From NCBI GenBank assembly GCA_030156895.1, contig JASGLP010000024.1, positions 1 through 43,274 of the forward strand: a DNA stretch of 43,274 nucleotides, written 5' to 3'. The stretch comes from Eubacteriaceae bacterium. Lineage in GTDB: Bacteria > Bacillota > Clostridia > Eubacteriales > Eubacteriaceae. The first letter of the stretch is position 1; each line of letters begins with the position of its first letter. Under the pieces are notes generated by a model. It worked only from the letters and a program-made list of their open reading frames with translations, did not search any database and was not told the DNA's origin. The position numbers were made by a program, and so were the translations under genes. This document shows, in pieces, positions 6,102 through 38,417 of the stretch.

Positions 6102-6285
6102 CCGTGCGTAGACAAACTCCGCACCGACCAATTGGATTTCGTAGTCTGCGCGCGGATTCGTACAGTTGCCCAATTTGAAAGCCCTAATATTCAGCGTTTT
6201 CCAGCAACTGTTCGCCCCGAGGCAGACAACTGAAAAGCCAATTGTCGGTGCTCAGGTATTCAATATTAGCTTTGTCTTCAGTCTG
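6102..6285 (+). mobile_element. Dispersed 184 bp hairpin element, copy A
   Basis: The terminal sequence has GTAGACAAAC on the left and, inverted, GAAGACAAAG on the right. An inner inverted repeat follows: GCACCGACCAATTGG (6121-6135) against CCAATTGTCGGTGC (6238-6251). Next are a middle stem GTCTGC (6144-6149)/GCAGAC (6222-6227) and an inner stem CAGTTGC (6163-6169)/GCAACTG (6204-6210) around a variable apex. No protein gene is present; reading frames through it are spurious. It is flanked by 23 bp direct repeats (21 of 23 identical) of a terminator hairpin, which suggests insertion with target duplication. It separates scfA from scfB. Confidence 0.85.
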
Positions 6286-6308
6286 AGGCTAGCTCTTCGA
6301 GACAGCCT
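6286..6308 (-). terminator. Terminator hairpin, right copy of the duplication flanking element A
   Basis: A stem-loop directly after scfA (minus strand: AGGCT-gt-CTC-GAA-GAG-ct-AGCCT). It lacks the T-run kept by the copy at 6079-6101, because element A now follows it. It may still slow transcription between scfA and scfB. Confidence 0.6.
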
Positions 6309-6318
6309 AAACGTTTGT

Positions 6319-6459
6319 TTAGTTTTCCTGTTTACATTTCTGATTGCCAACAGTACAAGATGTTTTACAAGCTGACTGACAAGATGTCTGACATTCTCCG
6401 CATCCTTTGTTTTTTACTTCTGTTAAGCGACCTTTTTTTACAAGTTTAATATGTTTCAT
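6319..6459 (-). CDS. scfA: SCIFF precursor peptide (six cysteines in forty-five)
   Basis: A 46-residue ribosomal peptide, the substrate of ScfB. The N-terminal leader is MKHIKLVKKGRLTEVKNK. The core has six cysteines in the family spacing (CGECQTSCQSACKTSC, then VGNQKC), very close to the known SCIFF consensus. Two adjacent ATGs exist, at 6462 and 6459. The second is preferred because it sits six bases after AGGTG, while the first leaves only three. The ribosome site overlaps the yajC stop region, so scfA is translated from the yajC-tgt-queA-ruvAB transcript. The function of mature SCIFF peptides is unknown; they are nearly universal in Clostridia. Confidence 0.95.
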   Translation of the reverse strand: MKHIKLVKKGRLTEVKNKGCGECQTSCQSACKTSCTVGNQKCKQEN

Positions 6460-6470
6460 CATAATCACCT

Positions 6471-6830
6471 CTATTCCTTTGTTTCGTCAATTTCTTCGTA
6501 TTCCGCATCAACAACGCCGGGTTCTTCCAGCTGATCATCTTCTTCAACCAGATCTTCAGCATCAGCTGAATTAACTACTTTAGCGATGGCTGATTTAGTA
6601 ATCAAAGCTTTATGGTAATCCGGCAATAATTCAATGGTTACATTTTCATTGCCGATGGCATAAATAATGCCGTAAAACCCGCCAATAGTAAGAATCTCAT
6701 CTCCTGGTTTCATATTGGAGCGCATGGTTTCTACTTCTTTTCGCTGTTTGTTCTGTGGTCGAATAACAAAGAAATAGAAAGATACCAGAACCAGAATCAA
6801 AGGAAGAATCATTGTTAAATCCAATCCCAT
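6471..6830 (-). CDS. yajC: Preprotein translocase subunit YajC
   Basis: Small membrane protein associated with the SecDF part of the secretion machinery. It is 119 residues from the preferred ATG at 6830, seven bases after AAGGAG; an ATG six bases further upstream is too close to the ribosome site. There is one N-terminal membrane helix (about residues 4-23, [15 protein letters not shown]), then the family motif [24 protein letters not shown] and a small beta domain. The tail is very acidic. It lies between tgt and scfA, an order common in Clostridia. Confidence 0.93.
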
Positions 6831-6850
6831 ATTCATTCTCCTTATTTTAT

Positions 6851-7978
<1,128 letters not shown>

Positions 7979-8010
7979 TTACTCCTTATTTTTCTCTCAA
8001 TTATAGCCAA

Positions 8011-9099
8011 TTATTGATTCTCAGCCTTATATTTCACTTGCTCTTCAATCAAAGCCGGGGCGCTCCGCTTCTTGCCATAAATAAACATGGCATCGCCAAA
8101 GCTGAAAAAACGGTATTTTGCTTCCACTGCCTGGCGATAAGCCGCCATCACCGCCTGGTGTTCGTAAAAAGCCGACACCAGCATTAAAAGCGTTGACTCC
8201 GGCAGATGAAAATTAGTGATCAGAGCATCAACTACCCGCCATTCATAGCCCGGATAAATGAAAATATCGGTGGAACCGGCATAGGCTTCAACCTGACCCT
8301 GGTGTATATTGGCGTTACTTTCCAGCGTTCTCACTGAGGTAGTTCCCACGGCAATAACCCGACCGCCCTTTTTTTTGGTCTCACGGACTAGTCGAGCGGT
8401 TTCTTCTGAAACCTCAAAATACTCTTCATGCATGTGATGTGCTTCAATCTGATCGGTTTTAACTGGTCTAAAGGTTCCGATCCCCACATGAAGGGTTACC
8501 TCTGTGACTGTTACTCCCTTTTTTTCAATTTCTTCAATCAGATCCGGGGTAAAATGAAGTCCTGCCGTAGGTGCCGCCGCTGACCCCTCAATCTTGGCAT
8601 AGACCGTCTGATAACGCGTTTTATCCTCTAGGGTTTCATGAATGTATGGGGGTATCGGCATCAGGCCAATTTGCTCTATAATTTCCTCGAATATTCCTTG
8701 GTAATCAAAGCGGATAATCCGCAGACCACCTTCGGTGGTTCCCACAATCTCACCCGAAAGATCAGGGCTGAAACGAATTTTTGACCCAATTTTTGCGCGC
8801 TTGCCGGGCTTGACCATAATTTCCCATTCATGAGCAGCCAGATGCCTTAACAAAAGGATTTCCACCTGTCCGCCGGTATCCTCTCTTTTTCCAAAGAGCC
8901 GGGCCGGCAACACCTTTGTATTGTTCATCACCAACAGATCACCGGCTTTTAAATAATCCAAAAGATCATAAAAATGCTGATCCTTTATTTCTCCAGTCTC
9001 TCTGTTGATGATCATCAGACGGGATTCATCTCTTTTCTCCAGCGGATGCTGGGCAATTTGCGCCTCCGGCAAATCATAATAAAAATCCGATTTATTCAT
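8011..9099 (-). CDS. queA: S-adenosylmethionine:tRNA ribosyltransferase-isomerase
   Basis: Transfers and isomerises the ribosyl part of S-adenosylmethionine onto preQ1-tRNA, giving epoxyqueuosine. It is 362 residues with family motifs [21 protein letters not shown] at the N-terminus, [23 protein letters not shown] and [17 protein letters not shown]. Its ATG overlaps the end of ruvB by eight bases (ATGAATAA), indicating translational coupling. Confidence 0.96.
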
Positions 9100-10150
9100 T
9101 CACTTCTTCCTTGTCTGTCTCAAATGACATCTTTACTTGAAAATTATTTTCTTCTTCCGGTACCAATAAACCCAGATGTTGATAGCCACGAGGTGTAATC
9201 ATCCGACCACGCGGTGTTTTGACCAAAAATCCCAGTTGGATCAGATAGGGTTCATAGACTTCTTCGATGGTATTTTTTTCTTCACCAATGGCCGCCGCCA
9301 AAGTATCAAGCCCCACCGGCCCACCAGCGAATTTTTCGATGATGGCCAGCAGCATAATGCGATCAATCTGATCCAGACCCACAGCATCCACCTCAAAAAG
9401 ATCCAGTGCTTCCCGCGTTGATGATAAATCAATCACACCCCGCCCTTCAATTTCACAATAGTCTCTGACCCTTTTTAAGAGGCGGTTGGCAATTCGCGGT
9501 GTGCCCCTTGACCGGATGGCCAATTCTCGAGCCCCTTCATCATCAATTTTTACATCCAGAATCCCTGATGACCGGCTGATGATTTTTGCCAGTTCATCGG
9601 CATTATAAAGCTCCAGTCGCTGGATCACGCCAAAACGATCTCTCAGCGGTGAGGTTAAAAGCCCCACCCGGGTGGTCGCCCCGATTAAGGTAAAGGGCGG
9701 CAGTTCCAGCCGAATCGACCGGGCTCCTGGACCTTTACCAATCACAATATCCAGGGCAAAATCTTCCATGGCCGGATAAAGCACTTCCTCAACCGACCGC
9801 TGCAGTCTGTGAATTTCATCGATAAAAAGTATATCGCCTTCTTTTAAAGCGGTTAAAATCGCCGCCAGGTCTCCGGCTTTTTCGATAGCCGGACCGGAGG
9901 TAGTCTTAATGCCCACGCCCATTTCGTTGGCGATGATATTGGCCAGCGTCGTTTTCCCTAGCCCCGGCGGCCCATATAAAAGGACATGATCAAGGCTCTC
10001 ACTTCGTTTTTTCGCCGCCTTGATAAAAATATCCATCTGCTTTTTGACCCGTTCCTGGCCGACGTATTCACTCAATCCCTGGGGACGCAGGTTTTTTTCG
10101 ATATCAAGATCCTGCTCAGTAAAATCCGTGGTGATGATTCGATCTTTCAT
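9092..10150 (-). CDS. ruvB: Holliday junction branch migration ATPase RuvB
   Basis: AAA+ motor that drives branch migration with RuvA. It is 352 residues. Walker [10 protein letters not shown] is near residue 61, Walker B FIDEIHRL near 110, sensor 1 GATTRVG and the arginine-finger region SPLRDRFG near 170, with a C-terminal winged-helix domain ([15 protein letters not shown]). It starts three bases after ruvA ends and overlaps queA. Confidence 0.97.
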
Positions 10151-10153
10151 TGC

Positions 10154-10756
10154 CTACCTCCCCTTCAGCGGATTAGCGCCACGCAAAGCTCTGGCAATCA
10201 GTTCCTCCAGAGCCAACTCTTCTGAATAGATGTTTTTAACCATCTGTGACGCTTCCTGTTCCATAAAACCCAGTCCTAACAGGGCTTCGGTGGCTTCCTG
10301 AGCCAGACTATCAGTTTTTAATCCAATTAAAACATCCGTTTTTTCCAGCGTCACATCTTTATAGCGGTCTTTCAGTTCCAGAATAATCCGACTGGCTGTC
10401 TTAAGGCCAATTCCCGGCGCCTTGGCAATAGCTTTAGGATCATTCTTTAATATATGCATAATCAATTCACTTCTTGAAAACTGCGATAAGAGACCCATGG
10501 CGGCCTTGGGACCGATCCCCGAAATGCCTATCATGGTGCGAAACATTTCCCGTTCATCGGCTGTCAAAAATCCATACAAGGCATGTTCGTCTTCTTTAAT
10601 GACCTGGTGCAGATAAAGCTTGACCTCCGAATTGATAAGCGGCAGCTCCATCATAGTGGTATTGGAGACTTTTATGAGATAGCCGATCTTCTGACATTCC
10701 ACCACGATCGAATCACTGTAGTTTTCTTTGAATGTGCCAATAATATACTCGTACAT
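10154..10756 (-). CDS. ruvA: Holliday junction DNA helicase subunit RuvA
   Basis: Binds four-way junctions and loads RuvB. It is 200 residues from the ATG at 10756, which follows AAGGAGG at good spacing and gives the family start MYEYIIGTF. The frame stays open upstream to about 10900, but that part is not RuvA-like. The OB domain covers 1-62, the helix-hairpin-helix region about 70-140 (GIGPKAAMGLL, GIGLKTASRIILELKD), and domain III for RuvB contact about 150-200. No ruvC is next to it. Confidence 0.96.
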   Translation of the reverse strand: MYEYIIGTFKENYSDSIVVECQKIGYLIKVSNTTMMELPLINSEVKLYLHQVIKEDEHALYGFLTADEREMFRTMIGISGIGPKAAMGLLSQFSRSELIMHILKNDPKAIAKAPGIGLKTASRIILELKDRYKDVTLEKTDVLIGLKTDSLAQEATEALLGLGFMEQEASQMVKNIYSEELALEELIARALRGANPLKGR

Positions 10757-10847
10757 GATGCCTCCTTGTCCCCTTGTGTTTTCATGTAATTCAACTCTGA
10801 CTATTCTATCAGATCTCAGATATTTTTCAACCACAAGACTAAATAAA

Positions 10848-10884
10848 AAGCTGCCAAAGGAAACATTATTTCCTTTGGCAGCTT
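10848..10884. terminator. Terminator between the 6S-like RNA and ruvA
   Basis: AAGCTGCCAAAGGAAA (10848-10863) pairs perfectly with TTTCCTTTGGCAGCTT (10869-10884) around a five-base loop, with T-runs on both strands. On the minus strand it ends the structured RNA at 10892-11068. A near-copy of this stem ends the tRNA unit at 30988-31027. Confidence 0.92.
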
Positions 10885-10891
10885 TTTTCAA

Positions 10892-11068
10892 ATGTCCCAA
10901 GAGATGTCCTTCATTTTTGACGCCCTAGCGCATGCCAGGTGGGTGTCTTGTCTCTGGTTTCTGCCTTCCACTGAAAAAGCGAGGCCCGACATCTGCCAGC
11001 GAACAGTCAGACTCCCTATTAAAAGATGTAGGTTCAAAAATAAAGTAGGTCGACAATCACCTTGGGAT
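10892..11068 (-). ncRNA. ssrS: Probable 6S (SsrS-like) regulatory RNA
   Basis: About 177 bases between a promoter and a terminator, with no gene. The transcript ends pair: TCCCAAG at the 5' side (11061-11067) with CTTGGGA at the 3' side (10895-10901), extended by GAT/ATC and GTC/GAC with one bulged base. Inner segments around GCTGGCAGATGTC and GACACCCACCTGGC can also pair, giving a long rod with internal bubbles as in 6S RNA, which binds the sigma-70 RNA polymerase. Length, closing stem and own promoter support 6S; I did not verify the family consensus. Other structured RNAs are possible. Confidence 0.55.
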
Positions 11069-11074
11069 AGTCTT

Positions 11075-11103
11075 ATTATACATGCTTTCGCTCTAAATTT
11101 AAA
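11075..11103 (-). promoter_or_regulatory. Promoter of the 6S-like RNA
   Basis: On the minus strand, TTTAAA (11103-11098) and a perfect TATAAT (11080-11075) are 17 bases apart. The predicted start near 11068 sits at the 5' side of the RNA's closing stem. Confidence 0.65.
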
Positions 11104-11150
11104 GAGCAAATTTTTATCATGAAGAAACAGCTTTTAGCTAATGATATTTC

Positions 11151-11324
11151 TCCCCCCCCGCACCGACCAATTGGATTTCGTAGTCTGCGCGCGGATTCGT
11201 ACAGTTGCCCAATTTGAAAATAATAATCAAAAGGTTTTCCAGCAACTGTTCGCCCCGAGGCAGACAACTGAAAAGCCAATTGTCGGTGCTCAGGTATTCA
11301 TTAAAACTCTTTGTCTTTAGTCTG
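11151..11324 (+). mobile_element. Dispersed hairpin element, copy B
   Basis: Same element as copy A: GCACCGACCAATTGG at 11160-11174, middle stem GTCTGC/GCAGAC, inner stem CAGTTGC/GCAACTG, closing CCAATTGTCGGTGC near 11276-11289 and a right end finishing in AGTCTG at 11324. The left end lacks the outer GTAGACAAAC part and has a run of eight C instead, so it is about 10 bp shorter. It lies directly after the radA stop. The flanks 11128-11150 and 11325-11345 are direct repeats with a two-base indel; the right copy includes the radA stop codon. Confidence 0.82.
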
Positions 11325-11330
11325 CACGCC

Positions 11331-12692
11331 TTAACTAATGATTTCAAGCGCTGATCGGACATTGTCAACTGCCATTAGCTCCATGTCTTTAACGCTTAAA
11401 CCACGGAGATTGCCCTTGGGAATAATACAGCGTTTAAAGCCTAGTTTTGCACCTTCCATTAGTCGTTTTTCCATCTGAGAGATGCTGCGGACTTCGCCGG
11501 TCAAACCCACTTCCCCCAAAACCATTAGATCATCGGGGATTTCAAATTCTCTAAGACTTGAGTAGAGCACCGCAATCACCGCCAGATCCAGCGCCGGTTC
11601 GTCAATTCGAATGCCACCAACCACATTGATATAAGCGTCATAGGAGGACAAATCAATACCCAATCGCTTCTCCAGAATCGCCATCAATAAAACCATGCGG
11701 TTATGGTCCATCCCCGTTGCCATCCGTCGGGGATTACCAAACCCCGATGAAGAGATCAGACCCTGCAGCTCAACCAAAAGCGGCCGACTGCCTTCCATAC
11801 AGGGAATTACTACAGATCCGCAGGTATTTTCGGGTCGGCTGTCCAGCATCATCTCAGAAGGGTTAGCGACGGTCTGCAAACCGTATTGTGTCATCTCAAA
11901 AATACCAATCTCATTCGTTGAGCCAAAACGATTTTTAACCCCTCTGAGCACCCGATAGGTATGATATTTTTCACCTTCAAAATAAAGAACCGTATCCACC
12001 ATATGTTCCAGCACCCGGGGACCGGCGATATTGCCTTCTTTTGTGACATGTCCCACCAGAACCATGGCAATATTGTCTTTCTTGGCCACCTGCATCAACG
12101 CTCCAGTGTTTTCCCTAATCTGACTCACGCTGCCTGGAGCTGATGTAATATCCGGACTGTACATGGTCTGGATGGAATCAATAATGACAATAGCCGGATT
12201 TATTTCCTCAATGGTTTTAAGAATATAGGGTATATTAATTTCTGAAAGAAAGAGGATATTATCCGATTTTACCTTCATGCGCTGACCACGCATTTTAAGC
12301 TGCTGTTCAGATTCTTCACCGGAAATATACAAAACCTTTTGTCCCTGATCACCCAGACTCTCTGTCACCTGTAACAGCAGGGTAGATTTGCCAATCCCCG
12401 GATCGCCGCCCAGTAGAATCATCCCCCCCGGTACAATACCGCCACCCAGCACCCGATCCAGTTCTGAGTTTAACGTTTTGATCCGGTTTTCACCGGAATA
12501 AGTAATTTCCTGTATCGATTTAGGTTTGGAATAAACACCGCGCTCACGAGTGCTTGATGCTTTTGCGCCAGCAGAAAAGTCGGTTTCTTCGACCAGCGAA
12601 TTCCATTCTCCGCATTCGGGACATTTCCCCATCCATTTTGCCGCATTATAACCGCAGCTCTGACAGACATAGATTGTCTTTTTTTTCGCCAT
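11331..12692 (-). CDS. radA: DNA repair protein RadA (Sms)
   Basis: RecA-like branch-migration ATPase in recombination repair, 453 residues. An N-terminal zinc finger (CQSCGYNAAKWMGKCPECGEW, residues 10-30) precedes Walker A GGDPGIGKST near 93, the RadA signature KNRFGSTNEIGIF near 252, and a Lon-like C-terminal domain from about 285. The last codons and stop lie inside the direct repeat that flanks element B. The final residues fit the family, so the insertion seems not to have damaged the protein. The ATG follows AGGAGGC. Confidence 0.97.
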   Translation of the reverse strand: MAKKKTIYVCQSCGYNAAKWMGKCPECGEWNSLVEETDFSAGAKASSTRERGVYSKPKSIQEITYSGENRIKTLNSELDRVLGGGIVPGGMILLGGDPGIGKSTLLLQVTESLGDQGQKVLYISGEESEQQLKMRGQRMKVKSDNILFLSEINIPYILKTIEEINPAIVIIDSIQTMYSPDITSAPGSVSQIRENTGALMQVAKKDNIAMVLVGHVTKEGNIAGPRVLEHMVDTVLYFEGEKYHTYRVLRGVKNRFGSTNEIGIFEMTQYGLQTVANPSEMMLDSRPENTCGSVVIPCMEGSRPLLVELQGLISSSGFGNPRRMATGMDHNRMVLLMAILEKRLGIDLSSYDAYINVVGGIRIDEPALDLAVIAVLYSSLREFEIPDDLMVLGEVGLTGEVRSISQMEKRLMEGAKLGFKRCIIPKGNLRGLSVKDMELMAVDNVRSALEIIS

Positions 12693-12701
12693 GACGCCTC
12701 C

Positions 12702-13190
12702 TTATTCCATCCATTTGTAAATCAGATAGCCAATCAAACCACCGATCAGATTGAGAATAATATCATCAATATCGGCTCGTCGGCTGGTCAAAAAGAAAAA
12801 CTGGACCACTTCAATTAAAGCGGTGCTGCCAAGACAAACCAGAAAAATCTCCACAAAGCCCACTTTATTCTTACGACTTAGTGGATATAATAATCCCATT
12901 GGCACAAATAACAAAATGTTTCCAAATAGATTGATAAAAGAAGAGGTAAACACGTTCATGATGATTTCTTTTATGTCGGTGGGATTGGTTGCCAGATAAT
13001 CCCAGTCAATAATGCCGTTTTCGACAATGTCATAAAAAAAGTTATCGATGCTGGTGATGGGCACCAGATTATAAGTTGTTTCATAGGTAATATTGCTGCT
13101 ATCCGGTAAAAGTGTCATCATAAACAGACCAATCAGATAGGCTAAAAAGACAAGTTTGATCATAAACCTGGCCCGATTATTTTTTATCAT
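12702..13190 (-). CDS. VanZ-like membrane protein
   Basis: 162 residues with four predicted membrane helices (about 10-28, 85-104, 112-130, 140-158) and the VanZ-family pattern NLFGNILLFVPMGLLYPL near 87-104, plus RADIDDIILNLIGGLIGY near the C-terminus. VanZ proteins are linked to low-level teicoplanin resistance, but most relatives have no proven role. It lies nine bases upstream of radA on the same strand and follows the terminator at 13236-13267. Confidence 0.85.
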   Translation of the reverse strand: MIKNNRARFMIKLVFLAYLIGLFMMTLLPDSSNITYETTYNLVPITSIDNFFYDIVENGIIDWDYLATNPTDIKEIIMNVFTSSFINLFGNILLFVPMGLLYPLSRKNKVGFVEIFLVCLGSTALIEVVQFFFLTSRRADIDDIILNLIGGLIGYLIYKWME

Positions 13191-13235
13191 ACCAATTTCC
13201 TCTCGTTTTTTTAAGACAATCTATTATATAAAAAA

Positions 13236-13267
13236 AACCTTTAAACTTCCACAGAAATTTAAAGGTT
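13236..13267 (-). terminator. Terminator of the PTS-IIC/PfoR-like gene
   Basis: AACCTTTAAA (13236-13245) pairs with TTTAAAGGTT (13258-13267), with a run of T on the minus-strand side. It separates the gene at 13291 from the VanZ-like gene. Confidence 0.75.
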
Positions 13268-13290
13268 GTAAATTTTTTGTAAACACTATT

Positions 13291-14340
13291 TTATAAGTCC
13301 AGTTTCATATCGCCGTCTTTAATCCAGTTTTTGGCATATAAGAGCCGATAAAATAGATAGGTTAAAAGCGCCGGCAGGATAAATTGTAACAAAGCAATGC
13401 CCAAGACGATACTGGTTATGGAATCGCCTGCTTCCGTCATGGCCATGACCGTTCCAATTTGACCCACAAAACCACAGGTTCCCATGCCCGCTGCCACCGA
13501 CGTATTTTTCATCTGAAAAACGGTGGTCGCCAATGGTCCTAAAAACAATGAGGCTAGGGTTGGCGGAATCCAGATTTTAACGTTTTTAATGATATTGGGC
13601 ATCTGGATCATAGAGGTGCCAATGCCCTGAGCGGCCAAGCCACCAACGCCATTATCTTTGAAGCTTTGGATAGCAAAACCAACCATTTGGCAACAGCAAC
13701 CCACCGTCGCTGCACCTGCTGCCAGGCCGGAAAGGCCTAACATAATACAGAGCGCGGCGCTGGAAATGGGCAAGGTTAAGACAATTCCAACCACCACGGC
13801 AATGACAGCCCCCATGATAATTGGCTGTTGGATAGTCGCCCACATAATCAGATCACCAAGCCCGGTCATTAAGGCACCAATAGGTGGGCCAACGATCGAA
13901 GCCGTTAGGGCGCCAACGATCATGGTGACAAATGGCGCAACCAAAATATCCACCTTGGTTTCCCCGGCAACCGCTTTACCAAACTCGGTTCCCACCACCG
14001 CTGCAATAAAAGCACCAGCAGGCCCGCCAAGGGTATTTCCCAGAGCTCCGCCAATGGTGATCGAAAACATAACCAGGGGAGGCGCTTTTAGACTATAGGC
14101 CACCGCTACTGCAATCGCCGGTCCGGTCATCGCCTGTGCGACCGGCCAAACAGTTTCTGACAGGAAGGGAATATGAAATAAAATACCGATCTGATTTAAA
14201 ATACTGCCCATCAATAGCGTTGCGAATAAACCAAAGGCCATAAATTTCAGGGCGTCCAGAAGATAACGCTCAACCGAGAAAACTATGTCCTTTTTAGCCA
14301 GAAAATCCTTGAATCCGGAATATTTCTTTTCTTTTTCCAT
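13291..14340 (-). CDS. PTS-IIC/PfoR-like polytopic membrane protein
   Basis: 349 residues from the ATG at 14340, which has GGAG seven bases upstream; an in-frame ATG 18 bases earlier lacks a ribosome site. There are eight to ten hydrophobic segments rich in glycine and alanine, with GGALGNTLGGPAGAFIAAVVG and GPPIGALMTGLGDLIMW typical of the COG3641 family (PTS EIIC type 2 fold, named after the PfoR regulator of perfringolysin). No IIA or IIB partner is near, so sugar phosphorylation cannot be claimed. Substrate unknown. Confidence 0.8.
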   Translation of the reverse strand: MEKEKKYSGFKDFLAKKDIVFSVERYLLDALKFMAFGLFATLLMGSILNQIGILFHIPFLSETVWPVAQAMTGPAIAVAVAYSLKAPPLVMFSITIGGALGNTLGGPAGAFIAAVVGTEFGKAVAGETKVDILVAPFVTMIVGALTASIVGPPIGALMTGLGDLIMWATIQQPIIMGAVIAVVVGIVLTLPISSAALCIMLGLSGLAAGAATVGCCCQMVGFAIQSFKDNGVGGLAAQGIGTSMIQMPNIIKNVKIWIPPTLASLFLGPLATTVFQMKNTSVAAGMGTCGFVGQIGTVMAMTEAGDSITSIVLGIALLQFILPALLTYLFYRLLYAKNWIKDGDMKLDL

Positions 14341-28220: not shown

Positions 28221-28254
28221 CAGTTCCTCCATTTAAAAAACACCTTACGGTGTT

Positions 28255-28438
28255 CAGTATGTAGACAAACCCCGCACCGACCAATTGGATTTCGTAGTCC
28301 GCGCGCGGATTCGTACAGTTGCGCAATTTGAAATCACTAATTATAGACGTTTTCAAGCAACTGTTCGCCCCGAGGCGGACAAGAGAAAAGCCAATTGTCG
28401 GTGCTCAGGTAGATAAAATTAACTTTGTCTTCAGTCTG
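28255..28438 (+). mobile_element. Dispersed 184 bp hairpin element, copy C
   Basis: Exactly the same length as copy A. The left end is CAGTATGTAGACAAACCC and the right end finishes CTTTGTCTTCAGTCTG. The core starts GCACCGACCAATTGG at 28274 and closes with CCAATTGTCGGTGC near 28391-28404. The middle stem is GTCCGC/GCGGAC, where copies A and B have GTCTGC/GCAGAC: a compensatory change. It is flanked by 17 bp direct repeats (28238-28254 and 28439-28455, 16 of 17 identical), each a small GTAA-looped hairpin on the minus strand. Confidence 0.87.
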
Positions 28439-28454
28439 AAACATCTTACGGTGT

Positions 28455-29003
28455 TTATTTTATCGCTTTGATTTGATTGAGGACGGTCTGAAAGTCTGAC
28501 GTTTCGTTGAGCGTTGCGGTCTGACGAATCAGCACCAGGGGATCGCCTTCCGGATAGATTTGAGCATAAGCATCAGCCAGACGATTGGCTTCATCCAATG
28601 ATGCCATGGTGCCCATAACCTGATCATCACAAAGGACAACAACGCCGTTGGTATAAATTTCTATATCCGCCGCTAAAAGCGCTGCCATGCAAGTTTCGAT
28701 ATCCAGACTTTCTTCAACGCGAGAAGCAACCAGTTCAACATCCTGACCAACAAAAATGTCATCATTTTTATAGGCTTGCTGATATTTTGCTTCGATCTCA
28801 TCTACAGCATTATCAAAAATACTAGAAGATTTTACAAAGCCCAGACTCTCACCCTGATAAAAAATCTCATACCCCTGGGTCTGAGCACTGACTACGCCTA
28901 CCGAAATCATAATCACAATGATGGTTAAAGTTACAATTGTTTGTCGTCGCTTTTTTTCTTTTCGTTTAATTTTTCTTAGTTCACGTTCTGTTGAAAAATC
29001 CAT
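28455..29003 (-). CDS. Membrane-anchored protein resembling the N-terminal stalk of M23 cell-wall peptidases
   Basis: 182 residues from the ATG at 29003, after GGGGTG. A basic cytoplasmic N-terminus and one membrane helix (about 23-42) precede two repeats of about 60 residues (YEIFYQGESLGFVKSSSIFDNAVDEI and IYTNGVVVLCDDQVMGTMASLDEANRLADAY). Such repeats occur before the G5 and M23 domains of clostridial cell-wall peptidases, but no catalytic domain is present here. The stop codon overlaps the right flank of element C. It may be a natural short form or a shortened protein. No function is assigned. Confidence 0.65.
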   Translation of the reverse strand: MDFSTERELRKIKRKEKKRRQTIVTLTIIVIMISVGVVSAQTQGYEIFYQGESLGFVKSSSIFDNAVDEIEAKYQQAYKNDDIFVGQDVELVASRVEESLDIETCMAALLAADIEIYTNGVVVLCDDQVMGTMASLDEANRLADAYAQIYPEGDPLVLIRQTATLNETSDFQTVLNQIKAIK

Positions 29004-30987: not shown

Positions 30988-31027
30988 AAGCTGCCAAAAG
31001 AAATGAAATCATTTCCTTTGGCAGCTT
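30988..31027 (-). terminator. Terminator of the tRNA Pro-Met-Phe unit
   Basis: A long stem AAGCTGCCAAAAGAAATGA (30988-31006) against TCATTTCCTTTGGCAGCTT (31009-31027), with one mismatch, ending in a T-run on the minus strand. The outer arms are the same as in the terminator at 10848-10884. Confidence 0.85.
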
Positions 31028-31052
31028 CTCTTTTGCCAATATAAACCCTTAA

Positions 31053-31128
<76 letters not shown>

Positions 31129-31231
31129 GTTTATATAATTAATCTCTATCGTCTTCTGACAAACGTTTAAAAGAAACTTTGCCAAACTAAGCGATTCACA
31201 ACAAATGCCTGCTCCCTACTGTCGCGCATTT

Positions 31232-31266
31232 GTGTTCTCTGCTTATACCGACTGAGCTATCTGGGC
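31232..31266 (-). pseudogene. Fragment of a second tRNA-Phe (5' half)
   Basis: The first 21 bases repeat the 5' end of tRNA-Phe exactly (GCCCAGATAGCTCAGTCGGTA); similarity then fades through AAGCAGAGAACAC. No anticodon loop or T arm follows. The adjoining DNA (31201-31233) forms a hairpin with arms ACAAATGC and GCATTTGT. It looks like the remains of a duplicated tRNA-Phe or the scar of a recombination event. Confidence 0.75.
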
Positions 31267-31276
31267 GCATAAAAAA

Positions 31277-31353
31277 TGGTGGGCCTTCAGGGGCTCGAAC
31301 CCCGGACCTACCGGTTATGAGCCGGTTGCTCTAACCAACTGAGCTAAAGGCCC
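31277..31353 (-). tRNA. tRNA-Met (anticodon CAT)
   Basis: Complete cloverleaf with acceptor GGGCCTT/AAGGCCC, anticodon loop CTCATAA, T arm GGTTCGAGCC and encoded CCA. The body resembles clostridial elongator tRNA-Met; a CAT-anticodon tRNA-Ile is less likely. Confidence 0.92.
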
Positions 31354-31375
31354 CCATGCGAATTCAATAAAAAAA

Positions 31376-31452
31376 TGGTCGAGGTGAGAGGATTCGAACC
31401 TCCGGCCCCATGGTCCCAAACCATGTGCGCTACCAAACTGCGCTACACCTCG
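31376..31452 (-). tRNA. tRNA-Pro (anticodon TGG)
   Basis: Complete cloverleaf with acceptor CGAGGTG/CACCTCG, anticodon loop TTTGGGA, T arm GGTTCGAATCC and encoded CCA. It is first in the unit, 14 bases after the -10 box. Confidence 0.96.
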
Positions 31453-31465
31453 ATACAACATTATT

Positions 31466-31494
31466 ATTATAGCAAACTCGCTATAATGTGTCAA
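31466..31494 (-). promoter_or_regulatory. Consensus promoter of the tRNA unit
   Basis: On the minus strand a perfect TTGACA (31494-31489), a 17-base spacer and a perfect TATAAT (31471-31466). This is the strongest promoter in the window, as expected for stable RNA. Confidence 0.93.
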
Positions 31495-31589
31495 GAACAA
31501 TTTTAATTTTCTTTTAAATTCAACCTCATCACTTGACGACTTGCTTATTTTAGCACAATCACCTTCCTTTATGCAAGCTTTTTTTTAGT

Positions 31590-33956
31590 TCATCTTTTAT
31601 TTTTTTCGCTCCTTTTTATATATGCTGCTTCAACATGCTCGATGATTCGTACTACAATCAGCATAATCGGATAAATCAACAAGAGATTGATACCCATCAA
31701 CAGGTACATCGGAGGTGAAAAGGACAACGGTGAAAGCAGATAGAAAAAGGGATAGAGTAAAAAAACTGCACCCGCAAACAACAAAACCATAGCCATAAAG
31801 AGCATCAATCGCTGACCGGTAAAGGGTTTACTGACACGAAATAGAATAACCAGCCCAGTTATCCCGGTTGCAATGACAGACAATGTTGATTTTTCTGCAT
31901 ATGACAGTCCAAAACGCTCCCCAACAAACATGATCAGAAGCACATTTAAAACAATCGCCATCGCACCCGGTAGAGCCTTTCGTAATACCGTTTCAAGAAA
32001 GTTGCCACTGACCCGGTTACGGTTTGGTTCAAGCGCCAGATAAACTGATGGAATGCCGGTCGTCAAGGACCCGATCAGGGTTAATTGAATCGGCACAAAA
32101 GGATAAGCTTGATTGGCAACAATTAGAATTATCGCCAATAATAAAGAAAAGAGTGTTTTAACCAAAAACAAGGACGCCGCACGACTTATGTTATTGATTA
32201 CCCGTCTTCCTTCCATCAAAACCCTGGTGAAACCTGAAAAATTTGAATCAAGCAGCACTACCTGAGACACCTGTCGAACCGCATCGCTGCCCGTGGCCAT
32301 CGCAATAGAGCAGTCTGCTTCACGCAGAGCCAGAATATCATTTACACCATCCCCCGTCATGGCAACAGTATGGCCATTGGCTTTCAGGGTTTTAATAATT
32401 AATTGCTTCTGATCTGGAGAAACACGTCCAAAAACGGAATATTCGAAAGCGGCAGCAGCCACGTCTTCATCCGTTTCCAATGTTTTGCAGTCAATGTAAG
32501 ACTCCCAGTGGGCAAGCCCAGCCCGCCGGGCGATTTGTGAAACCGTCACTGGGTGGTCTCCCGAAATCACCTTGATTGCGACGCCTTGATTTTTGAAAAA
32601 ATCCAACGTCTTTTTCGCTTCTTTTCTGATTTTATCCCCTAACAGAATCAACGCCGCAACACTCAAGTCACCGGGCAGTTGACTGTTTTCACCAAAAGCT
32701 TCTTCTGAATGGCACAGACATAAAACGCGCTGACCATCTTTAGCATAGCCCTCCACCTTATTGCGTATCTCTTCATACGCGTCTTTTAAAATGATTTCGG
32801 GCGCACCAATAACATAGCTTCCCACATCTATAAAATGAGCGCCGCTCCATTTCCGATCCGAAGAAAAATGAACCACTTGATCACAATTCCAGCTTGGAGC
32901 CTGACCAGAACAGGATTCTTTTAATGCCTGAGCAGTTGGATTTTCATCCTTCACATTGGCCACAATCGCCCGCAATGCTTTAATCGGATCCTTGTCCGCC
33001 AGCAGGGTTTCAACAGACAAAACCTCCATCACACCTTCAGTAATGGTTCCCGTTTTATCAAGGCACAAAACATCTACCCGAGCCAGGGTTTCGATGGCAT
33101 AGAGTTCCGAAATCAGCACATGATTGTGACCCAGCCGAATAACCCCGACTGCCAGTGCTACACTGGTTAAAAGCACCAAACCCTGCGGGATCATCCCAAT
33201 TAAAGCCGCCACAACAGAGACGACTGCCGTTTCAATGGGCAAATCCTGGACAAAAATCTGTTTATAAAAAAGTAAAAGGCCAATTGGTACTATCAAGGCA
33301 CCAACTACCCGAACAATCAGACGGAGTGAACGCATAATTTCAGAATTCGATTCTTTTATCGACTTTACCTGATCGATCAGTTGTGAAGCATAATTATCCG
33401 ATCCCACTGCTGTCGCACTGACATAGGCTTGACCTGACACGATAAAAGAGCCCGATAAGAGCGATTGGCCAGCTTCTTTTAAAATCGTATCAGACTCCCC
33501 AGTTAAAAGTGCCTCATTAACTTCCAGTTCACCTTCCAGAACAACCGCGTCGGCAGGAATCTGATTACCAGCTTTTAAAATAATGATATCATCCAGTACA
33601 ATATTCTCGAAGGGTATGCTTTGCATTTTTCCATCGCGCAAGACTTGAGCCATGGGCTGTGCAATCAGGGTCAACTGATCCACTGTACTTTTGGCCTTTA
33701 TTTCCTGGACAATCCCGATAATGGTATTGATAACAACGATATTAAAAAACAGCAGATTTTTGTATGAACCGACACAAAAAACCAGCAGCGCCAAAAACAG
33801 ATTCAGAAGATTAAATAAAGTCAGCGTGTTTTCTCTAATAATTCGGCTAACGGTTCTGGTTTTTGACTGCGGCTGATGATTGACTTGACCGGCTTTAATT
33901 CGCTCTTCAACCTGTTCCCCGGTTAGCCCAGTTGCGGGGTTGATCTTATTTGCCAT
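31590..33956 (-). CDS. CtpE-like P-type cation ATPase
   Basis: 788 residues. It has the order of P-type pumps: actuator TGES near 153, phosphorylation site DKTGT at D300, hinge TGDGVNDILALREADCSIAM near 545, and a C-terminal membrane block. The M4 motif and what follows it (MIPQGLVLLTSVALAVGV, P257-L260) match the CtpE group, which in mycobacteria takes up Ca2+. As I recall the group, it usually has PEGL here; this protein has PQGL. The substrate is inferred from the group only. It is a single-gene unit with no partner, and belongs to a different branch from the pump at 1564. Confidence 0.88.
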   Translation of the reverse strand: MANKINPATGLTGEQVEERIKAGQVNHQPQSKTRTVSRIIRENTLTLFNLLNLFLALLVFCVGSYKNLLFFNIVVINTIIGIVQEIKAKSTVDQLTLIAQPMAQVLRDGKMQSIPFENIVLDDIIILKAGNQIPADAVVLEGELEVNEALLTGESDTILKEAGQSLLSGSFIVSGQAYVSATAVGSDNYASQLIDQVKSIKESNSEIMRSLRLIVRVVGALIVPIGLLLFYKQIFVQDLPIETAVVSVVAALIGMIPQGLVLLTSVALAVGVIRLGHNHVLISELYAIETLARVDVLCLDKTGTITEGVMEVLSVETLLADKDPIKALRAIVANVKDENPTAQALKESCSGQAPSWNCDQVVHFSSDRKWSGAHFIDVGSYVIGAPEIILKDAYEEIRNKVEGYAKDGQRVLCLCHSEEAFGENSQLPGDLSVAALILLGDKIRKEAKKTLDFFKNQGVAIKVISGDHPVTVSQIARRAGLAHWESYIDCKTLETDEDVAAAAFEYSVFGRVSPDQKQLIIKTLKANGHTVAMTGDGVNDILALREADCSIAMATGSDAVRQVSQVVLLDSNFSGFTRVLMEGRRVINNISRAASLFLVKTLFSLLLAIILIVANQAYPFVPIQLTLIGSLTTGIPSVYLALEPNRNRVSGNFLETVLRKALPGAMAIVLNVLLIMFVGERFGLSYAEKSTLSVIATGITGLVILFRVSKPFTGQRLMLFMAMVLLFAGAVFLLYPFFYLLSPLSFSPPMYLLMGINLLLIYPIMLIVVRIIEHVEAAYIKRSEKNKR

Positions 33957-34029
33957 AGCTGCCTCCTGCTGTTTGGAATGGCAAATTATAACATTTTAGT
34001 CTTAAAATTTCCTAGCAGCAGGCATGAAA

Positions 34030-34069
34030 AAACCCGCACTGATTTAGCAACCTAAATCAGTGCGGGTTT
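34030..34069 (-). terminator. Terminator of the prmA-yqeY operon
   Basis: An 18-base perfect stem, AAACCCGCACTGATTTAG (34030-34047) with its complement at 34052-34069, and a four-base loop, directly behind the yqeY stop. Confidence 0.9.
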
Positions 34070-34073
34070 AAAT

Positions 34074-34517
34074 TTATGCCAGTTTTTCTTTAACTGCCTG
34101 ATTGACAAGTTTTCCATCTGCCCGGCCTTTGACCTTCGGCATCAGAGCCCCCATCACTTTGCCCATATCTTTTATATCTTTTGCTCCAGTTTCCTGAATC
34201 GTCTCATCGACAATCACCTTGATCTCATCAAGGGTTAACTGTGTAGGAAGGTAGCTCTCAATAATGGCTATTTCAGCCTGAGCCTGTTGGATTAAATCGT
34301 CTCTTTGAGCTTTCTCAAACTCCGCCAGTCCGTCCCGACGCTGTTTGAGCTGTTTTGCAATAATCTCAATGATCTGCTCCTCATTCAAATCCGTTTTCTG
34401 ATCCTTTTCGACCTGCAAAATCGCAGCCCGAATCATGGTCACGGTTGATTTACGAACCTTATCTTTTTCCTTCATTGCAGTTTTTAAGTCAGCCTGTAAT
34501 TGATCCTTTAATGCCAA
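34074..34517 (-). CDS. yqeY: GatB/YqeY domain protein
   Basis: 147 residues matching stand-alone YqeY: LQADLKTAMKEKDKVRKSTVTMIRAAI at the start, an all-helical core and GKVMGALMPKVKGRADGKLVNQAVKE at the end. The domain also forms the tRNA-binding tail of GatB in tRNA amidotransferases. The free form has no firm role but nearly always follows rpsU, as here. The start is a TTG at 34517 with AGGATG upstream. Confidence 0.92.
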   Translation of the reverse strand: MALKDQLQADLKTAMKEKDKVRKSTVTMIRAAILQVEKDQKTDLNEEQIIEIIAKQLKQRRDGLAEFEKAQRDDLIQQAQAEIAIIESYLPTQLTLDEIKVIVDETIQETGAKDIKDMGKVMGALMPKVKGRADGKLVNQAVKEKLA

Positions 34518-34528
34518 GTAGTCACATC

Positions 34529-34711
34529 CTATCTTTTTTTCATCTTTCTTTTTCTGGCAGCTTCTGATTTTCTTTTACGCTTTACGCTTGGTTTTTCGTA
34601 ATGCTCTCTTTTTCGAATTTCAGACATAACCCCTGCCATGGCTGTTTTTCTTTTAAAGCGTCTTAACGCGCTTTCGAGTGTTTCGTTTTCTTTAATTCTA
34701 ACCTCAGACAT
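34529..34711 (-). CDS. rpsU: 30S ribosomal protein S21
   Basis: 60 residues from the ATG at 34711, which lies six bases after a run of G that serves as ribosome site. [22 protein letters not shown] and the very basic tail [17 protein letters not shown] are typical. A TTG two codons upstream overlaps poor context and was not chosen. Confidence 0.96.
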
Positions 34712-34815
34712 TTTCAACCCCCCCCTCTAATCCGATGATAATTTCTGGAACAATCTTTCTTAGTATGAGTCAAACTATATTATATCGAAATTTTCTGGCA
34801 CTGTCAATTAATAAA

Positions 34816-35160
34816 TCAGCCTGGCGGCCATAACATAGGTCTGCCGCCCAACAGATGATAATGTAAATGGGGAACCGTCTGATTACCGTCTTTTCCGCAA
34901 TTATTGACTAAACGAAAACCAGAATCTGCAATTCCAAGCTTTAGCGCAATCCGGTTTGCGACACTGTGAATATGTCCGATGATCTCATCTCCCGCCGAAA
35001 TGGAAAGAATCGATTCATAGTGTTCTTTGGGAATAATCACGACATGAACTGGCGCCTGAGGCGCAATATCATTAAAAGCCAACACTAAATCATCTTCATA
35101 CACCTTCTCTGAAGGCAGTTCATTTTTAGCAATTTTACAAAATATACAATCCTGAGACAT
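34816..35160 (-). CDS. HIT-family nucleotide hydrolase (HinT-like)
   Basis: 114 residues: N-terminal CIFCKIAKNELPSEKVYEDD, the PVHVVIIPKEH strand, and the catalytic histidine triad HLHYHLLGG near 98. Such enzymes cleave adenosine phosphoramidates, including aminoacyl-AMP adducts. The ATG follows AAGGAGGAATTAT. It lies 11 bases after mtaB and about 100 bases before rpsU. Confidence 0.93.
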   Translation of the reverse strand: MSQDCIFCKIAKNELPSEKVYEDDLVLAFNDIAPQAPVHVVIIPKEHYESILSISAGDEIIGHIHSVANRIALKLGIADSGFRLVNNCGKDGNQTVPHLHYHLLGGRPMLWPPG

Positions 35161-35171
35161 ATAATTCCTCC

Positions 35172-36476
35172 TTAAAAAATGGTACCGCTCAAATAATTTA
35201 AGTGTTCCTCATATGATACCGTAACTTCCAGAATTTTGCCATTGATTTTTTGATCCGTTGCAATTCTGACCGGTATGTAATTTTGAGTATGGCCTTCAAA
35301 GACACCATCCTCTTGTTTTTGCTCAAATAAAACCGCTAATTTTCGGCCATGATTTTTTTTCAAGAAAGCCTGTTCCATCCTATTTTGACAAAGGCTCAAA
35401 CGTTGTGCCCGATCATTTTTCACCGCTTCATCAACCTGATCCGGATAGTCTGCTGCCGGTGTCCCTGCACGTTTTGAATACTTAAAAATATGCATCTGGT
35501 AAAAGCCGATTTCATCCACAAAAGCCAGGGTTTCCTCAAACTCCTGATTGGTTTCCCCCGGGAATCCAACCATTACATCAGTGGTCAATGCCGCATCCGG
35601 GAAAAAACTTTTGATCAGCGTCACTGTTTTTTTGTACTCAAGCGTTGTATAGCGTCGTTTCATCCGCTTAAGCACTGAATCCGATCCACTTTGCAGCGAA
35701 AGATGAAAATGCGGACAGAAATGTTTTAGTTTTTTTAACCGCCCTATCCGCTCTGCTGTTAAAAAAGCCGGTTCCAGAGAACCCAGCCGAATTCTTTCAA
35801 GCCCATCGATTTGATCAACTGCCTCGATCAGTTCAACAAGATCAGTCGCTTTGTTTTCTATTCCGTAAGAAGCAATATGAATGCCTGTTAGAACCACTTC
35901 TTGATGACCGGCTGCCACAACCCGTTTTACTTCGTCCAGAACATCACTTAGATCCCTGCTGCGCACTGGACCTCTGGCATAGGGAATAATACAATAGGTG
36001 CAAAAGCGGTTGCACCCTTCCTGGATTTTAATAAAGGACCTGGTTTTCCCCTTACTTTCCGAAATCTTTAAGGGTTCAAAAACTTTTTCTGCCATAATAT
36101 CTGACACAAACGCATGCTGTTGCTGATCCATTTGATATGCTTTTATATACTCCAGAATCTGAGCACGATTTTTTGTACCAATCAAAAGATCCACTTCTTC
36201 GATTTTTTCGACTTCCTCAGGGGCAACCTGAACATAACAGCCCACCGCACAGATCACCGCAGCAGGGTTTAATCGTCGCGCTTTTCTTAAGGCGTTTCGA
36301 GACTTTCGATCGCCCAAATGGGTAACCGTGCAGGTATTTACCACATAGACATCAGCAATCTCTGAGAACTCAACAATCTCAAAACCATCGCTTTCAAAAA
36401 TCTCCATCAGTGCTTCACTGTCATAGCTGTTGACCTTGCAGCCCAGAGTCATGAATCCAACTTTTTTACTCTTCAA
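35172..36476 (-). CDS. mtaB: tRNA (t6A37) methylthiotransferase MtaB
   Basis: Radical SAM enzyme that converts t6A37 to ms2t6A37 in tRNA for AAA codons. It is 434 residues. The N-terminal UPF0004 domain has three cluster cysteines (TLGCKVNSYDSE, VVNTCTVT, AVGCY), the radical SAM motif CNRFCTYCIIPYARGPVRSR lies near 155, and a TRAM domain covers the last 60 residues. The start is TTG at 36476 with GGAAGGAA upstream, four bases after rsmE ends. Confidence 0.95.
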   Translation of the reverse strand: MKSKKVGFMTLGCKVNSYDSEALMEIFESDGFEIVEFSEIADVYVVNTCTVTHLGDRKSRNALRKARRLNPAAVICAVGCYVQVAPEEVEKIEEVDLLIGTKNRAQILEYIKAYQMDQQQHAFVSDIMAEKVFEPLKISESKGKTRSFIKIQEGCNRFCTYCIIPYARGPVRSRDLSDVLDEVKRVVAAGHQEVVLTGIHIASYGIENKATDLVELIEAVDQIDGLERIRLGSLEPAFLTAERIGRLKKLKHFCPHFHLSLQSGSDSVLKRMKRRYTTLEYKKTVTLIKSFFPDAALTTDVMVGFPGETNQEFEETLAFVDEIGFYQMHIFKYSKRAGTPAADYPDQVDEAVKNDRAQRLSLCQNRMEQAFLKKNHGRKLAVLFEQKQEDGVFEGHTQNYIPVRIATDQKINGKILEVTVSYEEHLNYLSGTIF

Positions 36477-36480
36477 AAAT

Positions 36481-37224
36481 TTATTCCTTCCAAAAATTCA
36501 CTTGTCCAATCACCAGCATCCCCGCTGTTTCCGTCCGCAAAATCCGTTTCCCCAGGGAGACACTTTTTGCGCCTGAAGCGGTCAGAAGTTTCACTTCATC
36601 GGGATCAAAACCACCTTCCGGTCCAATTATGACAGCAATCCGCAATTTGTTTCCAAGCGGCCAGACAAAGTCGGTCAGCACTTTTTTTAGGCTGCTTTCC
36701 TCTTCATCCTCATAGGCTAATAAGACCAGATCAAAATCAGCCAGTTTTTCACAAAGGCCTTTAATCTTTAGCAGCGGTAAAACCGTGGGGATAATTCCCC
36801 GTTTAGACTGCTTGGCCGCCTCATAGGCGATTCGTTGCCAGCGTTCTATTTTTTTATCTTCTTTTTTGGCAATCTCGGAAACTGCCCGCTTGGATGAAAA
36901 GGGAACAATGGCCGTAACACCCAACTCCACGTTTTTTTGGACAATGGTTTCCATTTTGCTGCCTTTAGGAAGACCCTGAAAAAGCGTTATTTCAAAATCT
37001 TTATTTTCTCCTTGGGAAACAGATTTACCAAGAATCTTTCCGGTCAGTTCTTTGTCCGTAAATGCTTGAATAAGAACCTGATAATCCCATCCCTGTCCAT
37101 CGCAAACTTCAATCTCATCATTGGCTTTTAAGCGCAGCACCCGGGTCAGGTGTTTAAAGTCTTCACCAGTTATGGTGACCCTGTCATCACGAATCTGCTT
37201 TTCTTCAACAAAAAATCGATGCAT
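36481..37224 (-). CDS. rsmE: 16S rRNA m3U1498 methyltransferase RsmE
   Basis: 247 residues from the ATG at 37224 (MHRFFVEEKQI), two bases after the prmA stop. The N-terminal PUA-like domain covers 1-70. The C-terminal SPOUT domain has the SAM-binding knot motif IGPEGGFDPDEV near 205 and SLGKRILRTETA near 225. An upstream extension of the frame lies inside prmA and is unlikely to be translated. Confidence 0.95.
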   Translation of the reverse strand: MHRFFVEEKQIRDDRVTITGEDFKHLTRVLRLKANDEIEVCDGQGWDYQVLIQAFTDKELTGKILGKSVSQGENKDFEITLFQGLPKGSKMETIVQKNVELGVTAIVPFSSKRAVSEIAKKEDKKIERWQRIAYEAAKQSKRGIIPTVLPLLKIKGLCEKLADFDLVLLAYEDEEESSLKKVLTDFVWPLGNKLRIAVIIGPEGGFDPDEVKLLTASGAKSVSLGKRILRTETAGMLVIGQVNFWKE

Positions 37225-37226
37225 GA

Positions 37227-38165
37227 TTAGCCAATCTTTTGAGCCACTACGCCGACCCATTCACCCATCTGCTGGACATAAAGAATTTTAAAATCTTCTG
37301 TTTCCAGGGCATTTAAAACATCGGTCAAGCGGTCAATAATAATGCCGGAGGAAATAAAAATCCCATCCTTTTTTAAGTAAGGTCGAATCAGTGAGGACAA
37401 CTCAACAATAGCTGCCGCCAGAATATTCGCCACAATAACGTCGGCCACCTCATCGATCACATCGGTTAAATTGCCTTCGCGAATTTCAATCATCCCCTCG
37501 AGATCGTTAAGAAGAGCATTTTCTTTGGCGATCTGGACCGCCAGGGTATCGAAATCCACCGCTACCACTTTTTTAGCCTTTAGTTTACCGGCAATTAAAG
37601 ATAAAATTCCAGTTCCGCAGCCAATATCCAAAACCACATCACCGGGTTTGATATAATCCTCCAGATGCATGGCACAGAGCTGCGTTGTTTCGTGGGTGCC
37701 AGTGCCAAAAGCCATGCCCGGATCGATGTTGATTACAATCTCCCCTTCTTCAGTTTCATAGTTTTCCCAAGTTGGCTTGATCACGATACTCTTGCTGACT
37801 TTTGTCGGCTTGTAGAATTTCTTCCAGGAATTGGCCCAGTCATCTTCTTCCACCTCGGTAATGACCATTTCACAGTTACCGGGATTCAAACCGCAGGAAG
37901 GCAAATTCTTAACAGCCGTAATTAGTTGATGCAATGCTTCTTCGGTATTTTCCACTTCGCTGAAATAGCCCCTGACTATGGAGGCATTCGGATCAATCTC
38001 CAGCAAGGACTCATCAATATAATTCACCTTCGGATCATCCTGTAAAAGAAGCACATCCTGGAGTGTCTGAATGACGACACCTTGTGCCCCGCTCTCGTAA
38101 AAAGCATTAACCACCGCTTCCTCTGCTTCCAATGTTGTCGTGATTTGAACTTCCTTCCAAAGCAT
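37227..38165 (-). CDS. prmA: Ribosomal protein L11 methyltransferase
   Basis: 312 residues from the ATG at 38165, seven bases after GGAGGT; earlier ATGs lie in or beside the ribosome site. The N-terminal substrate-recognition domain covers about 1-95. The Rossmann domain has the family motif MAFGTGTHETTQLC near 165 and SAM motif I VLDIGCGTGILSLIAGKL near 185, then VDFD and VANILA. It starts the prmA-rsmE-mtaB-hit-rpsU-yqeY operon; dnaJ, often upstream elsewhere, is absent here. Confidence 0.95.
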   Translation of the reverse strand: MLWKEVQITTTLEAEEAVVNAFYESGAQGVVIQTLQDVLLLQDDPKVNYIDESLLEIDPNASIVRGYFSEVENTEEALHQLITAVKNLPSCGLNPGNCEMVITEVEEDDWANSWKKFYKPTKVSKSIVIKPTWENYETEEGEIVINIDPGMAFGTGTHETTQLCAMHLEDYIKPGDVVLDIGCGTGILSLIAGKLKAKKVVAVDFDTLAVQIAKENALLNDLEGMIEIREGNLTDVIDEVADVIVANILAAAIVELSSLIRPYLKKDGIFISSGIIIDRLTDVLNALETEDFKILYVQQMGEWVGVVAQKIG

Positions 38166-38194
38166 TCCCATTACCTCCATGACTTGATTTTACT

Positions 38195-38200
38195 ATTATA
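38195..38200 (-). promoter_or_regulatory. Probable -10 box of the prmA operon
   Basis: TATAAT on the minus strand, 29 bases before the chosen prmA start; the -35 region is AT-rich and poor. Confidence 0.4.
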
Positions 38201-38308
38201 CCACGTATTTTTTAAAAAAATAATTTTAAGCCCGCTGTTTGCGAGTTTTTACATTTTCACAAGAATTTTTAAAGTTTTATATCAAACTACAGCTTGCATA
38301 CTAACCCC

Positions 38309-38417
38309 GCACCAACCAATTGGATTTCGTAGGCTGGTGAGTTTCGTACAGTTGCAGCCAACTGAAAAGCCAATTGTCGGTGCTCGGGTGTTAATTATAA
38401 TTCTTTTTGTCTTCTCG
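38309..38417 (+). mobile_element. Dispersed hairpin element, short copy D
   Basis: The core is 75 bp (38309-38383) against 131 bp in copy A. The outer stem is kept (GCACCAACCAATTGG with CCAATTGTCGGTGC). The apex between CAGTTGC and the second CAACTG is deleted, and the middle stem is a different pair, GGCTG (38332-38336)/CAGCC (38355-38359). A diverged right arm continues to about 38417 (CTTTTTGTCTTCTCG). Flanking repeats are unclear: ACTAACC occurs on both sides. It lies between the divergent prmA and eutS genes. Confidence 0.75.

Follow-up and report, generated by a model that had tools for sequence, protein, structure and literature searches.

What is the 184-bp hairpin-forming repeat that recurs between the genes of this stretch of Eubacteriaceae DNA, and how does it spread? 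The window, by which we mean the whole stretch of 43,274 nucleotides analysed here (contig JASGLP010000024.1 of assembly GCA_030156895.1), contains four copies of the repeat, A to D, all in one orientation, for which an initial annotation left open a non-autonomous mobile element and a structured RNA family. We find that the repeat is very probably a miniature inverted-repeat transposable element (MITE), moved in trans by a subgroup of IS1182-family transposases that would choose their targets by shape. Judged by sequence, the mobile-element interpretation is borne out by terminal inverted repeats, target duplications, two empty sites in a relative, and transposase-bearing relatives with matching ends and the same target habit.

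Copies A (6102–6285) and C (28255–28438), both on the + strand and both found with the covariance model described below, are full-length elements of exactly 184 bp, as first annotated, with both ends present. Each is enclosed by two copies of a hairpin, a feature absent from the initial annotation. Copy A lies between a left terminator-like hairpin, AGGCTATCTCTTAGAGACAGCCT (6079–6101; direct-repeat score 18, with an A-run just outside), and the same hairpin on its right, AGGCTAGCTCTTCGAGACAGCCT (6286–6308). Copy C (L030, direct-repeat score 14.5) lies between AAACACCTTACGGTGTT (28238–28254) and the same hairpin on its right, AAACATCTTACGGTGTT (28439–28455).

Both sites are empty in G012, the closest relative by the radical-SAM/SPASM gene at site A (85% identity). 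Site A falls between this gene and a small cysteine-rich frame next to yajC, read by eye, which is likely to be SCIFF; where the window has hairpin, element and hairpin, G012 has AAGCTATCTCTACGAGACAGCTT. The duplicated hairpins and this single hairpin set the boundaries of copy A. Among 17 other loci for site A, one (L205) was too short for display, and in the 16 other genomes displayed the hairpin is single in 16, as judged by eye. Site C adjoins recX and carries a single AAACACCTTGCGGTGTT in G012, the only one of the 16 other genomes displayed in which the hairpin is recognisably the same sequence; related elements occupy the site in some of the others. As a separate observation, a different long inverted-repeat, hairpin-rich insertion occurs at site A in L204 (G003), L217 (G007) and L218 (G001), beside the terminator and between the same two genes, with the motif GGCGAACAG in common with the MITE core.

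The element is far more numerous than the window shows. The draft genome from which the window comes (G000; 2,997,552 bases in 101 contigs, 85% complete) was searched with a 19-base piece of the right arm, allowing up to two mismatches, which gave 129 matches in 3.0 Mb (57 forward, 72 reverse), and none for the reversed pattern as a control. The covariance model finds 135 places among 150 candidates scored. The shared orientation noted in the window is hence a local accident, and the extrapolation to hundreds of copies per genome was somewhat high: more than 100 are present, at about one per 22–23 kb, half the density of the window. A length of 184 bp, no transposase gene and 129 or 135 copies are what is expected of a MITE. 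BLAST with copy A gave matches in 16 of 19 Acetobacterium genomes, the own genome included, and in 0 of 21 other genomes of the same family. The covariance model, with at most 150 candidates scored per genome, extends this to all 19 genomes of the genus, with 10 to 135 matches each. Outside the genus, where at most 85 candidates were scored per genome, 19 of 21 genomes had none; the exceptions, G027 and G028 from one other genus of the family, had weaker matches, eight in the first (best E 1.8e-7) and two in the second (best E 6.6e-6), which may stem from a related element. Copy A matched nothing in plasmid and phage collections. No Rfam family reaches the gathering score across the element, and the best match at E up to 5, mir-2788 (E 2.7), is noise. 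The element thus belongs to no recognised family as far as Rfam goes, as first stated, but its ends and target habit tie it to IS1182.

Some copies carry further modules. One is a further hairpin, GGCTCGCGGGCAGTCGCC...TTGGCTCGTTGCCTTCGCGA, of about 81 bp, which looks like another small mobile repeat. It is nested within MITE copies at two different places, in the left arm (L023, L041, L050, L056, L097, L100) or the right arm (L040, L122), and is also present in copies from other species (L082, L086); a similar sequence also lies within the hairpin-rich insertions L204 and L217. A hairpin of about 19–20 bp resembling repetitive extragenic palindromes, of the GGGTCTGCCCCCTTGGGT type, sits at the same right-arm place in L115, L120, L042 (own genome) and L073 (G004).

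The hairpin duplications of copies A and C are typical of the element. From the own genome 108 matches were extracted, a few copies being counted twice, once on each strand. We scored the 89 with a head for flanking direct repeats and left unscored 19 without a head within 320 bp; these have indels in the head, are truncated, run into the end of a stretch or contig, or repeat a copy already read on the other strand. As a control, left flanks were scored against the right flanks of other copies (mean 6.6, 99th percentile 10.5, maximum 12.5). The observed mean is 13.9, and 60 of 89 copies exceed 10.5. The repeats, 11 to 30 bp long, are mostly palindromic, alike on the two sides and different from site to site. 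In 44 of 60 the repeat abuts the presumed left end, and in 49 of 60 it begins 2–4 bases into the fixed right window. They fold at a mean of -7.4/-7.3 kcal/mol, compared with -1.0 for shuffled repeats and -1.2 for stretches 80 bases further out, and 48 of 60 left repeats reach -3 or better (12 of 60 outer stretches). Four or more A precede the left hairpin in 38 of 60 copies and four or more T follow the right one in 34 of 60, compared with 9% of random 11-mers, so most targets look like intrinsic terminators. A run is present on one side only in 14 cases on the left and 10 on the right, which means that orientation is about even.

The other two copies in the window are degraded. Copy B (11151–11324, + strand; core 11160–11289) keeps its right end, but its left end is not recognisable, with a C-run and other sequence in its place. 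Copy D (38290–38417, + strand; left limit about 38290) is internally deleted with worn ends, its core (38309–38383) measuring 75 instead of 131. For neither is a flanking duplication significant (L037, score 6.5, and L039, score 7.5, respectively, against the control 99th percentile of 10.5). The covariance model, built from 48 cores, confirms these four places and detects no other in the window; it returned seven rows, three places being matched again on the other strand because the core is a near-palindrome. All four copies lie outside larger genes and encode no conserved frame, in line with the initial annotation; the 145-aa frame across copy D (38082–38519) is a mechanical open reading frame only.

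A transposase-bearing relative with matching ends, which the initial annotation had proposed to look for, was found among IS1182-family elements of Acetobacterium wieringae. We examined 30 DUF772 transposase loci from the genus. Two of them, L143 and L144, have ends of the form CAGACTGTCAAA(A/G)AA with near-identical palindromes just outside. The unbroken 460-aa frame of L143 encodes an IS1182 transposase (362.6 bits, cut-off 270); its counterparts in G016 and G012 have one stop each. The insertion sequence (IS) is common to A. wieringae records and the genus members G015 and G016, which identifies the genus as Acetobacterium. Of the 23 MITE copies from relatives, 4 have exactly the end of this IS (16 terminal bases and the T that flanks them) and 9 match it within three mismatches, compared with 5 of 3,000 random stretches from the same loci. 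In the own genome, the ends that a helper IS would have to match are CAGTGTGTAGACAAA / CAGACTGAAGACAAA, a subtype closer to other IS1182 ends (L167, L280, L284, L322). One of these, L167, is a decayed IS in G017 whose end is one base off the own type and which adjoins a palindrome, as seen by eye. An IS1182-family IS is thus the likely partner.

The same target habit is seen in IS1182 elements more widely. Among the best 80 of 195 relatives, ends could be placed in 61, and 19 had no usable end pair. Direct repeats score above 9.5, the 99th percentile of the control, in 44 of 61, and 43 of these 44 also exceed the control maximum of 17.5. The duplications are 18–46 bp long (median 28), reach both ends with zero gap in 42 of 44 cases and are perfect in 36; 43 of 44 fold at -6 or better, compared with 31% of shuffled repeats. 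Insertions within one species were counted separately, including nine in Chakrabartyella piscis and two in A. wieringae. From plasmids, 1,640 records matched, 40 places were listed and three were examined by eye: the IS of Enterococcus faecium and Providencia plasmids (L322, L323) also have duplicated hairpins, and the third (L321) has no duplication. MITE and IS thus have this kind of target duplication in common (60 of 89 copies and 44 of 61 elements), and duplication of the whole hairpin looks general for an IS1182 subgroup.

How could a complete hairpin come to stand on each side? In the mechanism we propose, the target is a palindromic stem-loop, usually a hairpin resembling a terminator, and the transposase would join the element ends to its 5' feet. 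Gap repair would then leave a complete hairpin on each side, doubling the target instead of destroying it. Either orientation would be used, since the target is palindromic. A DDE transposase duplicates the sequence between its two cut points, and in most DDE transposons these are separated by a fixed short stagger. Here the cuts fall at both feet of a palindrome, as much as 46 bases from each other, which is hard to reconcile with a ruler along linear DNA; with an extruded target it would be easy, since the feet meet at one junction. The attack would therefore be on an extruded cruciform or hairpin, and both resulting hairpins may continue to act as terminators.

Several results weigh against movement in trans by such a transposase. 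No movement has been observed. No significant flanking duplication is found in 29 of 89 scored MITE copies or in 17 of 61 IS1182 relatives; several of the latter have unlike hairpins on their two sides (L264, L269, L274, L276 and L281 are such copies), as if by recombination between two insertions. In G012, the ends of L141 match, but its two flanking palindromes agree only in part. Ends of the own type are less close to the A. wieringae end, only 4 of 78 copies coming within three mismatches of it. The partner transposase was searched for in the own draft genome (85% complete) without a match; the DUF772 gene present there is a different one. Finally, MITE and IS have only their ends in common, which leaves the inner part unexplained.

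This inner part is a 131-bp hairpin core (6121–6251 in copy A, + strand), delimited by folding, alignment and the covariance model, and it is the ground for the strongest alternative, that the hairpin acts as an RNA (for example as an RNase III site, mRNA stabiliser or small RNA) and that mobility is its means of spread. On both strands, copy A folds better than each of 200 shuffles (z -5.01 and -4.98), and genomes across the genus share the core but differ in the outer ends. For the alignment, 65 of 166 core reads were set aside as opposite-strand readings; the 48 sequences used (A1) comprise 23 from relatives and a varied selection of 25 from the 78 own cores. The inner hairpin covaries: 92.8% of cells are paired compared with 87.9 in shuffles, and 76 are doubly changed compared with 24.4, for a structure that was written from the folding and alignment of these sequences and so leans towards them. 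Nine pairs are doubly changed compared with 5.8 in shuffles (4 of 500 shuffles reach 9), with a clear loss on sliding. At two variable pairs, the 78 own copies switch between TA and CG (55 to 23 and 50 to 28) with no mixed states.

The same data also contain much that speaks against an RNA. The TA and CG states follow subfamilies, so the independent events are few. Further pair types show no excess (14 compared with 14.8 in shuffles, 433 of 500 reaching it), and several inner pairs fail in relatives. A comparison of mismatches gave no support for a transcribed strand: on the + strand G.U is not enriched over A.C, the A.C mismatches outnumbering G.U by 25 to 10 in own copies and 43 to 23 in relatives. 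Insertion beside terminators in both orientations provides no fixed transcribed strand, and there is no Rfam match. Variation is lowest in the arms (0.033–0.035), compared with 0.205 in the apical loop and 0.155–0.200 in the ends. Purifying selection on the arms, which this regional divergence suggests, was considered and rejected: the middle arms, at 0.04–0.05, are near the 0.067 found between the two copies of target duplications. The part of the structured-RNA proposal that stands is a hairpin conserved with compensatory changes, and no result separates RNA from DNA structure. We therefore regard a family whose hairpin works as RNA as rather unlikely, although the conserved inner hairpin may have some role.

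It is more doubtful still that the core is the remnant of a nested second transposon, whose long inverted repeats would be the arms of about 48 bp and whose gene would have been lost from the apical loop. The variable loop between conserved arms would suit this history, as would the other hairpin modules nested in some copies. However, arms lying far apart were found in 0 of the 19 headless matches, a weak test given that most stretches are about 600 bases and that no genus-wide search was made. The idea that the flanking hairpins are no target duplications but belong to the element itself, or lie beside it by chance, has next to nothing left in its favour: hairpins are nearly universal beside the ends in the flanks displayed, but they differ from site to site, mispaired flanks score well below true pairs (mean 6.6 compared with 13.9), and the empty sites, with a single hairpin at orthologous places, refute the idea for A and C. 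An attC-like integron site was set aside too, as the end boxes do not fit.

Other features of the window, identified with Rfam, are a NiCo riboswitch (1425–1522), a 6S RNA just upstream of copy B (10890–11071) and three tRNAs (31056–31452). A run of 12-base repeats of the CCTTTTTCAAGA type lies within a reading frame at 41042–41137.

How does a MITE that doubles its target hairpin compare with known systems? Like the elements studied here, IS1272 and TnSha1 have IS1182-family transposases and hairpin or inverted-repeat targets without sequence consensus; several of these targets are confirmed terminators, and both orientations occur at one target (PMC5678879, PMC4923244). The lack of a sequence consensus in the stem-loop target is found for both the MITE and the IS relatives. 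The outcome differs: in this stem-loop replacing transposition, IS1272 and TnSha1 replace or delete the target hairpin and leave no target duplication. PMC5678879 shows replacement by IS1272 and draws duplication of the whole stem-loop only as a possible pathway b, and PMC4923244 reports a deletion without target duplication. Here the hairpin is not lost but kept on both sides of the element and single in G012. ISPse1, also of the IS1182 family, is listed with a 4-bp duplication (PMC3281130). ISPse1 and the MITEs assigned to ISMac2 have the same broad transposase family, and the latter are archaeal, short and non-coding at 160–169 bp (PMC3852290). For elements of this type, the duplications listed are of 4, 4 and 0 bp, the meaning of the column in PMC3852290 being our interpretation, and not hairpins of 15–30 bp as here. 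With IS1272 replacing its target, ISPse1 duplicating 4 bp and hairpins doubled here, the IS1182 family is mixed, and whole-hairpin duplication marks a subgroup.

The ISEfa7-like IS1182 elements of Enterococcus faecium plasmids are close as well. The window MITE has a left end similar to theirs, CAGACTGTAGACAAAC, which is matched within two mismatches in 21 of 78 own copies, a count with no chance control, and by eye L322 has AATAGAGCTTTTCAGCTCTATT on both sides. They differ in being autonomous, with a transposase 44–46% identical to that of A. wieringae, and L321 lacks a duplication. The EFAR repeats of Enterococcus faecalis are miniature elements of about 170 bp that also target stem-loops, and their insertion deletes most of the target hairpin. 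In the literature searched we found no account of this 184-bp repeat or of whole-hairpin duplication by an IS1182 element, and a review of the family may say more on long duplications.

A broader proposal, to which we give about even chances, is that a wide IS1182 subgroup reads DNA shape and doubles the stem-loop, as in pathway b, by attacking the 5' feet of an extruded cruciform or hairpin, which brings together cut points separated by 18–46 bases of sequence. Its structured Acetobacterium passenger would thereby settle at many terminators without breaking them, and the covarying inner hairpin would have its own function, either as RNA or in mobility. For a direct test there is material in the A. 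wieringae copy with its unbroken frame and in the nine copies of Chakrabartyella piscis. A duplication length that tracks the target hairpin (18–46 bp) suggests an enzyme that gauges structure, not distance, and sequenced insertions would therefore report hairpins extruding in the living chromosome. For Acetobacterium, this accounts for a repeat found throughout the genus and suggests a way of landing that does little harm: terminators are plentiful and extragenic, and here they survive in two copies.

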